From the IMG/VR virus record IMGVR_UViG_3300031669_000139, positions 1 to 33,685 of that record: 33,685 bases of DNA. One strand, given 5' to 3'. The notes under the pieces were generated by a model that did no database searches, was not told the origin of the DNA, and was given only the letters and a program-made list of their open reading frames with translations. The position numbers and the translations under genes are program-made. Every line of letters starts with the position of its first letter. The first letter of the stretch is position 1. The DNA is from a virus. Positions 17,261 to 22,713 of the stretch are shown here, piece by piece.

Positions 17261-17563
17261 TTATTTATTTTTTGTAAATATGTCTGTTATTGTATTTAAT
17301 ATTAAATCTAAAGAAAAACCGACTGCTAAAAAAGCTATAAATTTCCAATCAGTAGCGAAGATAGTTTTAGCTGCAAAACCATATCCTAATGATTTTAGAA
17401 ATACCATGCTAAAATTTATGATTAATGTTATAAACGAAGAAAAGAGAGTATTTCCACCGACATACTCTCGTTCAAGTGTTTCATCAAAATTGTCTGGTTC
17501 TGGAATTGGTTCTCCGTTCCTAAATGCGTTTAATCTTTCTGCCAATAAATTATTATTGATCAT
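17261..17563 (-). CDS. Small two-helix membrane protein, 100 aa
   Basis: ATG 17563 chosen over an upstream TTG (17587) because ATG overlaps the previous stop by 11 nt (coupled) and gives MINNNLLAERLNAF. Two hydrophobic segments, about 40-60 (TLFSSFITLIINFSMVFLKS) and 73-92 (FIAFLAVGFSLDLILNTI), with an acidic N-terminal part. Unrecognised. A two-helix membrane protein in a phage operon could be a holin, but holin identity cannot be shown from this sequence and no endolysin is adjacent. Confidence 0.68.
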   Translation of the reverse strand: MINNNLLAERLNAFRNGEPIPEPDNFDETLEREYVGGNTLFSSFITLIINFSMVFLKSLGYGFAAKTIFATDWKFIAFLAVGFSLDLILNTITDIFTKNK

Positions 17564-18032
17564 TCTTATTTTTGCTTTTGACGTCAATCTTCATTTGTTG
17601 AGACTTAGGATCCTTTTTTGGAGTTTTTTCTGAAGCTTGAACTTCTACTTTTTCGCTAGTCTCTTCTTTTTTCTCTGCAGGAGTTTCCTCCTTTTTGTTT
17701 TTAGGAGATTTAGGTTCAGGAGTTTCATTATCTGATGTTTTTACATCACCAAACATTCCAGGTTTGAAATCTTTTACAGATTTAAGATCGGTTTGTAAAT
17801 CATAACCAGGTTTAAAAGATGATCCCTCACCTTTAATTTCAACCTTAACCTCAGTTTTACCTTTTTGGTATTCGGACTTCAACCAATCAAAACTTTTCTT
17901 AGTAGCACCATCATCAGGCATAAGAATTCCATCTTGAGCTGATCCAACAGTGAACCCCTTTTGAGTATTTGCTTCAGCTTGTTCGTGAAGTTTTTCTAAG
18001 TAATCGTTAAAATTAAAACTACCTGTTTCCAT
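17553..18032 (-). CDS. Hypothetical low-complexity hydrophilic protein, 159 aa
   Basis: N-terminal part METGSFNFNDYLEKLHEQAE seems helical; the middle (about 55-95) has EVKVEIKGEGSSFKPGYDLQ; the last 60 residues are Lys/Glu/Pro-rich and disordered (PKSPKNKKEETPAEKKEETS). Unrecognised. First gene of an operon running through thymidylate kinase, with the best promoter match of the window directly upstream and a tandem second copy. Possibly a virion or scaffold-associated protein from its composition; this is a guess. Confidence 0.68.
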   Translation of the reverse strand: METGSFNFNDYLEKLHEQAEANTQKGFTVGSAQDGILMPDDGATKKSFDWLKSEYQKGKTEVKVEIKGEGSSFKPGYDLQTDLKSVKDFKPGMFGDVKTSDNETPEPKSPKNKKEETPAEKKEETSEKVEVQASEKTPKKDPKSQQMKIDVKSKNKNDQ

Positions 18033-18070: not shown

Positions 18071-18100
18071 AAAAAAGAAGCCCACACTTTGGCAGTGGGC
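18071..18100 (-). terminator. Terminator at end of tmRNA locus
   Basis: GCCCAC (18100-18095) pairs with GTGGGC (18085-18080) on the - strand, followed by TTCTTTTTT. It ends the tmRNA transcript. Confidence 0.8.
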
Positions 18101-18226
18101 AAGTCTCCTGACTGTGAGTGCCTTCTTAGGCAGCCATAGCCATTTCATTTTTATTTACGCCGTTTATTGCGTTCCTGAGACCTACTCATCGCTACTTTCA
18201 TATGCAATCAAATCCATGTCAGCCCC
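18101..18226 (-). ncRNA. ssrA: tmRNA, coding piece of circularly permuted two-piece tmRNA
   Basis: Read on the - strand from 18226: GGGGCTGACATGG, the 5' end of bacterial tmRNA, whose GGGGCTG pairs with CAGCTCC of the acceptor piece (7 bp with one G-U). TTGCATA (18207-18201) pairs with TATGTAA of the acceptor piece, like helix H2. A reading frame ends GGC GTA AAT AAA AAT GAA ATG GCT ATG GCT GCC TAA (18161-18126): tag ...GVNKNEMAMAA, with a hydrophobic/Ala end like the bacterial ALAA tag. The stop lies in a 5-bp hairpin (18119-18132), as in known tmRNA. The resume codon is either GCA (18170) or GGC (18161). A bacterial tmRNA releases stalled ribosomes and tags the product for proteolysis. Confidence 0.85.
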
Positions 18227-18393
18227 TTTCGCCGAACTGTTCTCGGCGGTCAGGTTATTTATCCATGGCTTATAACCAAAGCACTATTGGATATAAAAAT
18301 TTCTACCGGCCCTATCGTTACTCATTTATGTGTTTTTGTCTTGCTTCTCTGCAACGGTCACCATTTAGGTCGTAACCCGAGGTAGAAATTTAG
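18227..18393 (-). other. Intervening sequence of permuted tmRNA precursor
   Basis: The 167 nt between acceptor and coding pieces would be removed on maturation. It is structured: AAATTTCTACC (18391-18381) pairs perfectly with GGTAGAAATTT (18307-18297), enclosing 73 nt with further pairing (GTTAC/GTAAC); and CGCCGA/TCGGCG (18248-18243, 18235-18230) forms a hairpin right before the RNase P-type 5' end GGGGCTG. No group I intron or hammerhead core seen. Confidence 0.6.
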
Positions 18394-18463
18394 TGGAGCT
18401 GCGGGGACTCGAACCCCGGTCTTACATACTAACCTCACGACTAGACACTTTTGGTGTCGAGTC
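18394..18463 (-). ncRNA. ssrA: tmRNA, acceptor piece of circularly permuted two-piece tmRNA
   Basis: On the - strand: hairpin GACT-C-GACAC/GTGTC-T-AGTC (18463-18439), then TATGTAA (18428-18422, H2 partner), T-arm CGGGG TTCGAGT CCCCG (18418-18402) with a canonical T-loop, then CAGCTCC and discriminator A at 18394. CCA is not encoded. No tRNA 5' half lies at the expected distance upstream, and the matching GGGGCTG is 168 nt downstream, so the order is 3' half, intervening sequence, 5' half, as in permuted tmRNA genes. The 5' end given is the end of the hairpin and is approximate. Confidence 0.85.
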
Positions 18464-18575
18464 TCATTATTTTTAATTTTTTTAGAACCTCAAGATTATT
18501 TTTTATTCTTTTTGCGTCTTTTAACGCAGAAGAACGACTTTTAGCTTTCGGAATTCTTTTTTTAGCTTTTCCCAT
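18441..18575 (-). CDS. Small very basic protein, 44 aa, overlapping tmRNA acceptor piece
   Basis: ATG at 18575 and TAG at 18441 give MGKAKKRIPKAKSRSSALKD, then AKRIKNNLEVLKKLKI and MRLDTKSV. More than a third of residues are Lys or Arg, suggesting nucleic-acid binding. Its last codons run into the first hairpin of the tmRNA acceptor piece, so mRNA and tmRNA precursor could be one transcript. A TATA-rich stretch (18580-18600) lies upstream. It could also be a chance frame in an A-rich leader, hence moderate confidence. Confidence 0.45.
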   Translation of the reverse strand: MGKAKKRIPKAKSRSSALKDAKRIKNNLEVLKKLKIMRLDTKSV

Positions 18576-18834: not shown

Positions 18835-20604
18835 TTAAAATTCTAATTCGGTACCTTCCTCACCCCCGCCAAGATCTTCACCTCCACCGAGTTCACCTCC
18901 GCCTCCGAATTCTCCACCACCAAATCCACCACCAGCTTCACCACCAGCAGCTTCTCCGGATCCATTAGCAGCATTTAATCTAGCATAAGCAGATATAAGT
19001 TTTCTAACTTCTTCATTAGTTTCTGCTATATATTTACTATTTAATTTAAGATCAATATCTGATAATTGCATATATTTTTCTACTAAAAATTTAGGAGCAA
19101 AGAAAGGAACATCAACAGGTGATCCATCAGGACCAACACTCGGATGGGTTATACCCATTAATTTAGATACTAAATCTGCTCCGGCAGATGCAACTTGTCT
19201 TTCTTTAGCAACAGTAAATAAATTTTCTTCTATAAATAAAAGACCTATTGCTCCCTTTAGATTTTTATCATTTTCAAATTCGGGATGTTTAAGAACAAAT
19301 TGATACCAAGTAGGTTTAAGAAGTATTTCTTTAAATATTGATCTAATACGATTAATGAAATATGAGAATCTAACTTCTTCTCTTGCAATACTATCATTGC
19401 CAACAGACCAATTAGGTCCTTCTCCACCACCGCCACCACCACCGGATTCAAAACTTGAACCGAATCTACTTTCTGGAACCTTTGATTCCACAATGAATCT
19501 CATCCAGAAATATTTAAGAGCTTCAGTATCTCCTAAATTATAACCTTCTGGTTTAAATGAATCTACTTCTGTTTGTGTTCCATCCTTAGATGGGAATATG
19601 TATGTTTTTGCAAATGAAAAGTTTGGTTGCCCATTAACTGTAATTTCACCAGATTCGTCAGCAATGTTAATATCTTCTTTGTACATACCACGAAGTTCTG
19701 CTAATCTTGTTCTTGCTTTTGCTTCTGATTGAGTTCCAATAGGAACAACAATTTTCATTCTATATTGAGCATTGATAACGTTCCAAATAATTCTGGAATT
19801 TTCAAGAGTTCTAAGCATATTAAAAGAACGAACTAATCTCTCAACATAAGAAAGTCTGGAGATGAAGTTCGTTCTTGCCCATGACATGTAAATTAAGTTG
19901 GCATCTAATAATTCCCTTTGTCTTTCTGAATCACCTCTATATTGAATCCAAACTTTATAGTCATTTCCTTCTTCATCTTTCTTTAATTCTGGTTCTAATG
20001 AAACTGGATCAAGTTCTTTAAAGCCAATTACATTTTGGGCATCATCTTTAGCATCTACATCATAAATAATTTCGAATGCTAAAAATCCATCAATCAATAA
20101 TTTTTTACAATAGTGCCATGCATCATGGCCATTGTTAAATCCAAATGCATAATAAATCTTTTTATAAGCAGCATTTAAATCATCTATAATTTCTTTAGCC
20201 TTATCTTGTTTTAAAACAGATTTTAAAACTCGAGTATTTGGATATGCAAAATAATTATTATCGTCTAAAATAATAGCTTCATCAGCAATTATTTCTAAAA
20301 CGTGTTCAATTTCACCATTCATTGCAAATCTTCTAAGGAAATCTCTTCTTGTGGGATATTCCTTATCATAATAAGCTATAAATTCCTTTTGATTAATGTC
20401 ACCACCTGAAAATATCTGAGATTGGCCATAAAGGTTATACATGTTATCCTCTATAGCTTCAGTAATACCTATAGCCTTTGACTGTTTAATTATTCTGTCA
20501 TCCCATTTCATGCCTAATGCAGAAAGATAACGAAGGTTTCTCTGTATATTAGCTATGAATCCAGATGGTCTTCCATCAATATTTCTAAGCGTAAATCCCG
20601 CCAT
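18835..20604 (-). CDS. Portal protein (T4 gp20-like)
   Basis: 589 residues (T4 gp20 is 524). Forms the dodecameric portal at one head vertex, for DNA packaging and tail attachment. Seen: N-terminal region with YPTRRDFLRRFAMNGEIEHV, ADEAIILDDNNYFAYPNT, then wing and stem segments including LVRSFNMLRTLENSRIIWNV (about 260-280), typical of gp20-type portals. Two oddities: an ESGGGGGGGEG insert near residue 395, and a Gly/Glu-rich low-complexity C-terminus of about 45 residues (GGGFGGGEFGGGGELGGGED). A promoter-like element lies before the ATG. Capsid genes are not in the window. Confidence 0.88.
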   Translation of the reverse strand: MAGFTLRNIDGRPSGFIANIQRNLRYLSALGMKWDDRIIKQSKAIGITEAIEDNMYNLYGQSQIFSGGDINQKEFIAYYDKEYPTRRDFLRRFAMNGEIEHVLEIIADEAIILDDNNYFAYPNTRVLKSVLKQDKAKEIIDDLNAAYKKIYYAFGFNNGHDAWHYCKKLLIDGFLAFEIIYDVDAKDDAQNVIGFKELDPVSLEPELKKDEEGNDYKVWIQYRGDSERQRELLDANLIYMSWARTNFISRLSYVERLVRSFNMLRTLENSRIIWNVINAQYRMKIVVPIGTQSEAKARTRLAELRGMYKEDINIADESGEITVNGQPNFSFAKTYIFPSKDGTQTEVDSFKPEGYNLGDTEALKYFWMRFIVESKVPESRFGSSFESGGGGGGGEGPNWSVGNDSIAREEVRFSYFINRIRSIFKEILLKPTWYQFVLKHPEFENDKNLKGAIGLLFIEENLFTVAKERQVASAGADLVSKLMGITHPSVGPDGSPVDVPFFAPKFLVEKYMQLSDIDLKLNSKYIAETNEEVRKLISAYARLNAANGSGEAAGGEAGGGFGGGEFGGGGELGGGEDLGGGEEGTELEF

Positions 20605-21914: not shown

Positions 21915-22262
21915 TTATAGATTATATATCTGGTGTTGACTTATAGAAACTTTTGAGGATTTTGGCATATTGCCGTAGAGTTTTCTCCAACCTTTAGCAA
22001 AACCATTTTTAATTATTTGAGTATAATAAGCAAAAGCATTTTGAGATTTTTCAGGATCATATCCTCTCCAATACATATAACAATCCATTATAGCAAATTG
22101 AATACAATCTTCTTTATCTTCTGTGTAAATATAATTTAATTTATTTGCAAATTTTTGGGCCATCAATATTAACATATCTAATGCTTCTGCAGACAATTCC
22201 CCCTTCTCTTTTGAAGCTATAATAGCTTCTCTTAGATCTTTGTTTTTAACGTGGTGTGCCAT
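21915..22262 (-). CDS. gp55-like late sigma protein, copy B (region 2 only)
   Basis: 115 residues; T4 gp55 is 185. HVKNKDLREAIIASKEKGEL (4-23) matches T4 gp55 YVNNKELLQAIIDWK, and DCIQFAIMDCYMYWRGYDPE (52-71) followed by NAFAYYTQIIKNGFAKGWRKL matches its region with [20 protein letters not shown] and PHAYITQACFNAFVQRIKK. This is sigma region 2, for polymerase and -10 binding. It has no region 4, as in T4. Its C-terminus QHQIYNL might be a short clamp-binding peptide, since T4 gp55 ends with a sliding-clamp-binding tail; speculative. Adjacent to a paralogue, 3 nt apart. Confidence 0.75.
   Translation of the reverse strand: MAHHVKNKDLREAIIASKEKGELSAEALDMLILMAQKFANKLNYIYTEDKEDCIQFAIMDCYMYWRGYDPEKSQNAFAYYTQIIKNGFAKGWRKLYGNMPKSSKVSISQHQIYNL
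21920..21930 (-). promoter_or_regulatory. Promoter-like GATATATAATC before gp4-like gene
   Basis: Inside the end of the preceding sigma-like gene, 15 nt before the gp4-like ATG. Followed by TATAAAAG. Weaker match than others. Confidence 0.4.
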
Positions 22263-22265
22263 ATT

Positions 22266-22601
22266 TTATGTTTCTTTTATTTTCTTTTTAAATTTTGATA
22301 CTGATTGGGCAAATGAACACCTTATCACTTGAGACATATAAGCAAAAGCGTTTTCAGATACTTCTGGATTATATTTAGTGAAATGTTTACCACAGGATAC
22401 GAAAGCTAAAACTTCTGCTAATATAGATTGATCTATTGCCTCTGCGACTTCCATTTCTTTTAACCATGGCCATACATATCTGTGCGATAACGATGTTATC
22501 ATTTTTGATACCATTTCCACGGCATTTTCTGTAAGCTTTCCTATTTCTTTAGATTTGATAAGTTCTTCTCTTAATTCATCATTACGAACGTATTTCTCCA
22601 T
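22266..22601 (-). CDS. gp55-like late sigma protein, copy A (region 2 only)
   Basis: 111 residues from ATG 22601. An upstream TTG (22673) in frame would add 24 residues, but that stretch does not look protein-like and overlaps AT-rich leader. YVRNDELREELIKSKEIGKL (4-23) and the later NAFAYMSQVIRCSFAQSVSKFKK align with copy B and T4 gp55 region 2. It lacks the C-terminal extension of copy B. Two tandem copies suggest duplication with divergence; one may have become a co-activator or inhibitor. First gene of the late-type head operon. Confidence 0.72.
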   Translation of the reverse strand: MEKYVRNDELREELIKSKEIGKLTENAVEMVSKMITSLSHRYVWPWLKEMEVAEAIDQSILAEVLAFVSCGKHFTKYNPEVSENAFAYMSQVIRCSFAQSVSKFKKKIKET

Positions 22602-22713
22602 ACTTAATTGTTTTTTAACAATAATTAGTGTTTTATGTGAAAAATTTTTATTAATTTTTATGTGAGTACACAAGCAAAATCACTTAAAAATTAAAGTATA
22701 CCTATTTTATAAA

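Follow-up and report, generated by a model that had tools for sequence, protein, structure and literature searches.

A circularly permuted tmRNA gene with Bacteroidota-type features beside the portal gene of a phage from a huge-phage clade

A circularly permuted tmRNA gene was identified at 18458-18071 on the minus strand of the window (the whole stretch of viral DNA analyzed, an IMG/VR fragment of 33.7 kb) by reading of the sequence, by Rfam cmscan, and by ARAGORN. The gene, its structure, its conservation, its synteny, and its Bacteroidota-type features are well supported by computation. Judging from sequence, it is likely that the gene specifies a working two-piece tmRNA of a huge phage of the T4 superfamily, and that it represents a phage-borne, Bacteroidota-derived permuted lineage apart from the alphaproteobacterial, betaproteobacterial, and cyanobacterial lineages (alpha, beta, and cyano below).

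Only three origins of permuted tmRNA have been described, all of them bacterial (PMC11915505, PMC9004378). Permuted tmRNA in phages is already known. The Methylophilales phage Melnitz (MZ577097) was reported in 2022 to have a permuted tmRNA of alphaproteobacterial affinity, and 53 two-piece tmRNA calls were made in a census covering 18,146 phage genomes (PMC9004378). The first-pass annotation of this DNA, which named ordinary tmRNA as known in some phages, is corrected by these reports. What appears to be new is the Bacteroidota-type variant in Bacteroidota phages and huge phages. Permuted tmRNA in either of these was found in no paper of the open-access library searched, where absence is not proof.

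The permuted tmRNA gene and its parts

A covariance-model scan, which the first-pass annotation had recommended, matched the Rfam family tmRNA_permuted (RF04321) at 18442-18126 from the first to the last model position with 67.2 bits (E 4.8e-11), above the cut-off of 47 bits. ARAGORN independently called a tmRNA* with the tag GVNKNEMAMAA. The standard one-piece model RF00023 scored 24.6 bits, below its cut-off of 47, and this is the best among the matches listed for the window in clan CL00001, to which beta_tmRNA is assigned. No gathering cut-off was reached in the window by the permuted models for alpha, beta, and cyano (RF01849, RF01850, and RF01851). The fold of the whole gene has a z of -4.1.

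The T-arm and the acceptor 3' strand are encoded ahead of the tmRNA 5' end, with an intervening segment between them (Table 1). Direct reading confirmed the order proposed earlier, in which the T-arm and CAGCTCC come first and GGGGCTG comes 168 nt later on the minus strand. The P2 strands TTGCATA and TATGTAA were located as claimed, and the tag frame, which had been described as ending in NEMAMAA and a stop, reads GVNKNEMAMAA followed by TAA. CCA is not encoded in the gene; ACTA follows instead.

Table 1. Parts of the permuted tmRNA gene and its conserved neighbors in the window
Feature	Position	Strand	Basis
5' hairpin of acceptor piece, GACAC-CAAAA-GTGTC, then TAG	18444..18458	-	sequence reading
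P2 3' strand TATGTAA	18422..18428	-	sequence, Rfam; 6/7 pairs with two-sided changes among homologues
T-arm CGGGG-TTCGAGT-CCCCG	18402..18418	-	sequence, Rfam; 96% of cells paired
Acceptor 3' strand CAGCTCC (18401-18395), discriminator A, and first C	18393..18401	-	sequence, ARAGORN
Intervening segment, 166 nt, with 11-bp AAATTTCTACC/GGTAGAAATTT helix; removal expected	18227..18392	-	fold z = -2.3
Acceptor 5' strand GGGGCTG, mature 5' end of coding piece, expected RNase P site	18220..18226	-	sequence, Rfam
P2 5' strand TTGCATA	18201..18207	-	sequence
Tag frame GGC GTA AAT AAA AAT GAA ATG GCT ATG GCT GCC TAA = GVNKNEMAMAA	18126..18161	-	sequence, ARAGORN
Terminator-like hairpin GCCCACTGCCAAAGTGTGGGC and T-run, likely precursor 3' end	18071..18100	-	sequence, fold; same site in most homologues
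159-aa protein of unknown function, conserved downstream neighbor of tmRNA	17553..18032	-	synteny
Portal protein, T4 gp20 family, conserved upstream neighbor	18835..20604	-	phrog_213, 9.9e-50; synteny

Two candidates at this locus were rejected. For the intervening segment, a known riboswitch or other RNA like that claimed in Melnitz was represented only by an Rfam match to rox2 with an E of 4.5, which is not credible; the fold z of just -2.3 and the variable length likewise speak against one. The tmRNA gene is overlapped at its 5' end by a basic ORF of 44 codons (MGKAKKRIPKAKSRSS...) at 18441-18575 on the minus strand; as a part of the system it was discarded, a homologue being absent from the relatives' loci that were searched.

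Conservation and the carrier phage

A permuted tmRNA gene lies just downstream of the portal gene in 33 other contigs, whose portal proteins are 60-100% identical and whose gene order is conserved. A search for the same arrangement in other phages, also recommended earlier, was thus positive. The tmRNA is absent from a few close relatives (L008, L203, L028/L224, L225, and L230), indicating that it is dispensable.

Covariation was tested on 16 aligned homologues and 19 pairs of the acceptor stem, T-stem, and P2. Two-sided changes were observed in 14 of the 19 pairs, and the covariation score was 0.497, compared with 0.146 in shuffles, none of which came as high (0/500), and with 0.06-0.14 in slid controls. 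Pairing of the acceptor stem is complete (100% of cells, 16/16 aligned copies), and the proposed pairing of GGGGCTG with CAGCTCC is borne out by compensatory changes among homologues. The third acceptor pair is U-G (columns 109/293) in 16/16, so that G3-U70 is invariant, and the discriminator A (column 112) is present in all alignment rows. A G-U at acceptor position 3 is read by alanyl-tRNA synthetase (AlaRS) as the alanine identity rule.

Almost every one of the 16 homologues begins its acceptor piece with a hairpin whose stem sequence differs between copies and which precedes TAG or TAA, as judged partly by eye. Among homologues, intervening segments range in length between 14 and 166 nt. 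Therefore, the hairpin in the segment of the window is not considered a conserved part. Long segments are found in the crAss-like phages cr50_1 (L418, 213 nt) and cr125_1 (L419, 165 nt) and in the window, while some relatives have 14-20 nt.

The gene content of the window includes gp2-like, head-closure, gp46-like, and UvsW-like helicase genes, two gp55-like late sigma factors, thymidylate kinase, and a sigma factor. Two adjacent minus-strand genes (21915-22262 and 22266-22673) both belong to phrog_234, the T4 late sigma factor family, and look duplicated. The best portal relatives among named phages are Lak (540-552 kb, 43% identity) and LR756500 (462 kb, 39%), both of which place in or near the Mahaphage clade. 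Close relatives of the window are on contigs of 405, 323, and 260 kb. The label "T4-like" in the first-pass annotation thus holds for gene content, but by these sequence comparisons the carrier is placed among huge phages, in a clade allied with Lak. Bacteroidetes are the predicted hosts of Mahaphage members over 634 kb, as they are of Lak (PMC7162821). The host of the window is probably a member of Bacteroidota; a Bacteroidota-promoter motif, tried as a host clue, was not enriched.

SmpB was found neither beside the tmRNA nor elsewhere on the contigs of the clade, which are up to 405 kb long. It is present in Lak and other megaphages. Otherwise intact portal genes contain in-frame TAG codons in L245, L246, and L260 (one each) and in L261 (five), which suggests TAG recoding as in Lak phages.

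Affinity and origin of the permuted form

Viral contigs, and no bacterial chromosomes, supplied the reference for other permuted genes, class A. It comprises genes with tags like ANDxxxALAA or ANSNQYALAA, D-region TTCGA, and encoded CCA. The alpha, beta, and cyano lineages have tags of this type, and an alanine resume codon (GCN) is usual in them. Because class A was separated from a second group, class B, partly by tag and CCA, only comparisons with the portal-defined clade, as below, are free of circularity.

In the window, the resume codon is GGC (glycine) and the D-region is TTTGA. GGC is the resume codon in 14/18 of the clade, 83/88 one-piece genes of Bacteroidota, and 4/4 one-piece phage genes, but in 2/53 of class A (Fisher 1.3e-9 for clade versus class A). 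TTGA in the D-region is seen in 17/18 of the clade versus 5/54 of class A. CCA is encoded in 0/18 versus 36/54; since the clade genes never encode it, the host must add it. The final residues are MAA, IAA, or MVA in all 18 tags of the clade, while MAA is found in 2/63 Bacteroidota. The glycine resume codon, the TTTGA D-region, and the lack of CCA, as read from these sequences, match one-piece tmRNA of Bacteroidota (tag GENNYALAA, usually without CCA), not the permuted genes of the alpha, beta, and cyano kind. The Bacteroidota genes differ from the window in their standard order, their ALAA tag end, and the longer distance between the 5' end and the resume codon (96 nt versus 65 nt). This short interval suggests that the first pseudoknot (PK1) has probably been lost in the window.

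The sequence does not appear to be of the alpha, beta, or cyano types, which the first-pass annotation had named as the known bacterial ones. RF04321 matches it over the full model, but the seeds of this family come from the alpha, beta, and cyano clades (PMC11915505), and no clade-specific model reaches its cut-off. Melnitz resembles the window in being a large T4-like myophage with a circularly permuted, phage-encoded tmRNA, but its tag is ANDNYVPVDYALAA, its resume codon is GCA, and its CCA is encoded, as against GGC, no CCA, and an -MAA tag. Melnitz falls with class A.

In Bacteroidota loci, ARAGORN called one-piece tmRNA in 69/69 cases. Among 395 Bacteroidota genomes, searched with strict filters that weak cases could escape, a single permuted gene was above the cut-off; its surroundings are phage-like, and the host has a normal copy as well. 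This gene (L278/L282; G289:C1:986035-986308, minus strand) has the tag GKVIQMNNAPVRLAA and adjoins tRNA-Met and tRNA-Ile. The region carries genes for phage-type DNA polymerase, helicase, and exonuclease, and the genome retains a one-piece tmRNA with the tag GEDNYALAA.

Permuted tmRNA was also found in Maribacter phage Panino (L415), Chryseobacterium phage MA9V-3 (L417), and the crAss-like phages cr50_1, cr125_1, and cr10_1 (L420), whose records label the gene just tmRNA. They share with the window the permuted order, glycine-first tags, no CCA, and a tRNA-like domain of Bacteroidota type (51.6-63.6 bits with the Bacteroidota profile versus 23-41 with class A), but they belong to other phage groups and have other tag families (GNNFVTDYT.. 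and GKVMNVSF..). Because the type is seen here in phages of Bacteroidota and not in the Bacteroidota searched, it is suggested that the rearrangement arose once more, in viruses.

A strict DNA pattern for permuted tmRNA gave zero matches. A looser pattern in IMG/VR gave 120 stretches, most of the class A type. Class B is a marine large-phage group (L371, L299, L321, L369, and similar loci) with permuted tmRNA and very uniform tags, GEQVEMAMAA and GEQVEYAMAA. By the proteins compared, class B phages are unrelated to the window. Their protein relatives are Flavobacterium phage immuto and Microcystis phage Mel-JY01, in which permuted tmRNA is absent by RF04321.

One-piece tmRNA genes are found in related huge phages, namely LR756500 (tag GNNAEMRMAA), Lak-A1, Lak-B4, L236, L237, L245, and L246. 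In L245/L246, the gene immediately precedes the portal gene, and the tag, GEYNEYRMAA, is nearly identical to the permuted tags GEQFNEYRIAA (L020) and GENVYNEYRIAA (L009). In Lak-A1 and Lak-B4 (L055/L056), it is just upstream of the portal gene with a tag end read by eye as FRMAA; Rfam scores are 54 and 47.3 bits, and ARAGORN misses both. These megaphage genes (Lak, LR756500, L245/L246) are like that of the window in their -RMAA or -EMRMAA tags and, in Lak and L245/L246, in the portal neighborhood. They are unlike it in their standard order and their position upstream of the portal gene; in addition, Lak and some other megaphages encode SmpB. The switch between one-piece and permuted forms occurred once on one portal tree and twice on another whose forks among these groups lack resolution. 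In this huge-phage group, permutation of the one-piece gene most likely took place within the phages. The contig of L236, a sister huge phage, also contains a GOLLD-like RNA (L264, 2537-2963) close to the one-piece tmRNA and a tRNA cluster; its score of 73 bits is under the curated cut-off of 150.

The tRNA-like domain gives conflicting signals on origin. With its 60 columns it is too short, and AU tests reject every grouping tried, favorable and unfavorable to a Bacteroidota origin. In a nearest-neighbor test, 13/18 of the clade grouped with Bacteroidota. In a profile test, which is clear for the isolate phages and ambiguous for the clade of the window, 5/18 were nearer to the Bacteroidota profile, and the window scored 41.3 bits with it versus 49.3 with class A. 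Due to the conflict among trees, AU tests, and profiles, the case for an independent origin rests on the discrete features, the tags, the one-piece genes that related phages carry, and the isolate phages. Taken by itself, an independent origin of the permuted lineage is fairly probable. We lean, a little less firmly, to the wider view that Bacteroidota phages hold a fourth, virus-born two-piece lineage, in which a one-piece gene was taken up and permuted in phages once or more, acquiring -MAA tags of its own, while the hosts stayed one-piece.

It is possible, if on the unlikely side, that a permuted tmRNA of Bacteroidota type was born in other Bacteroidota phages, such as crAss-like phages or flavophages, and was swapped into the huge-phage clade rather than permuted in place. 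The crAss-like, Maribacter, and Chryseobacterium phages own permuted genes, class B genes with -EMAMAA tags are found in unrelated marine phages, and the permuted gene is downstream of the portal gene while the one-piece gene of L245/L246 and Lak is upstream. The match between permuted and one-piece tags within huge phages (NEYRIAA and NEYRMAA) argues for permutation in place.

Horizontal gain of a real two-piece tmRNA from bacteria of the alpha, beta, or cyano groups or from phages infecting them, the case of Melnitz, with later drift of the tag and D-region to the Bacteroidota type, is doubtful. Permuted tmRNAs of these kinds are common in viral contigs, and the slight preference of the tRNA-like domain of the window for class A points the same way. 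Against this, the resume codon, D-region, missing CCA, and tag all fit Bacteroidota and the one-piece phage genes, the clade-specific Rfam models remain below cut-off, and related huge phages own one-piece genes of the same tag type.

It is improbable that the gene is a decayed tmRNA or a decoy that has lost trans-translation and might, like the RNA of phage DS6A, compete with the tmRNA of the host. The absence of SmpB from the clade contigs, the short 5' interval with the probable loss of PK1, and the tag end MAA instead of the usual LAA would be in line with a decoy. However, the tag frame with its stop, the resume codon, the alanine identity pair, and the stems are retained across many divergent copies, and decoys of the DS6A kind have no tag (PMC11915505, PMC4131195). 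The agreement of two independent programs, the same synteny in 33 other contigs, and the strong covariation uphold the original proposal of a phage-encoded permuted tmRNA with an -MAMAA tag, and chance resemblance or an assembly artifact can be dismissed.

Predicted working and implications

Under the preferred reading of a working two-piece tmRNA, general tmRNA biology predicts that the gene would be transcribed as a single transcript, and that RNase P would cleave ahead of GGGGCTG. The acceptor piece would be trimmed by tRNA 3'-end enzymes and given CCA by the CCA-adding enzyme of the host, and the intervening segment would be discarded. The products, an acceptor piece of ~73 nt and a coding piece of ~120-155 nt, would be held together by the acceptor stem and P2.

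With G3-U70 and A73 kept, host AlaRS would charge the tmRNA, and host SmpB would deliver it to stalled ribosomes. GVNKNEMAMAA would then be added and read to the stop codon, leading to the recycling of ribosomes, and the nascent protein would probably pass to host proteases. The terminal Ala-Ala of the tag is read by ClpX. The replacement of LAA by MAA is a mild change adjoining the terminal Ala-Ala, and degradation may stay, weaken, or be redirected. The purposes offered in the first-pass annotation, targeting of particular host proteases or service during degradation of host mRNA, are speculative.

Panino and MA9V-3 are testable systems with laboratory hosts. Since these hosts are expected to have one-piece tmRNA, size and tag should distinguish the host RNA from that of the phage. 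If the proposed history is true, a phage-borne fourth origin, together with the presence of both forms among related huge phages, would make the step from one piece to two pieces reconstructable and would mean that this rearrangement recurs.
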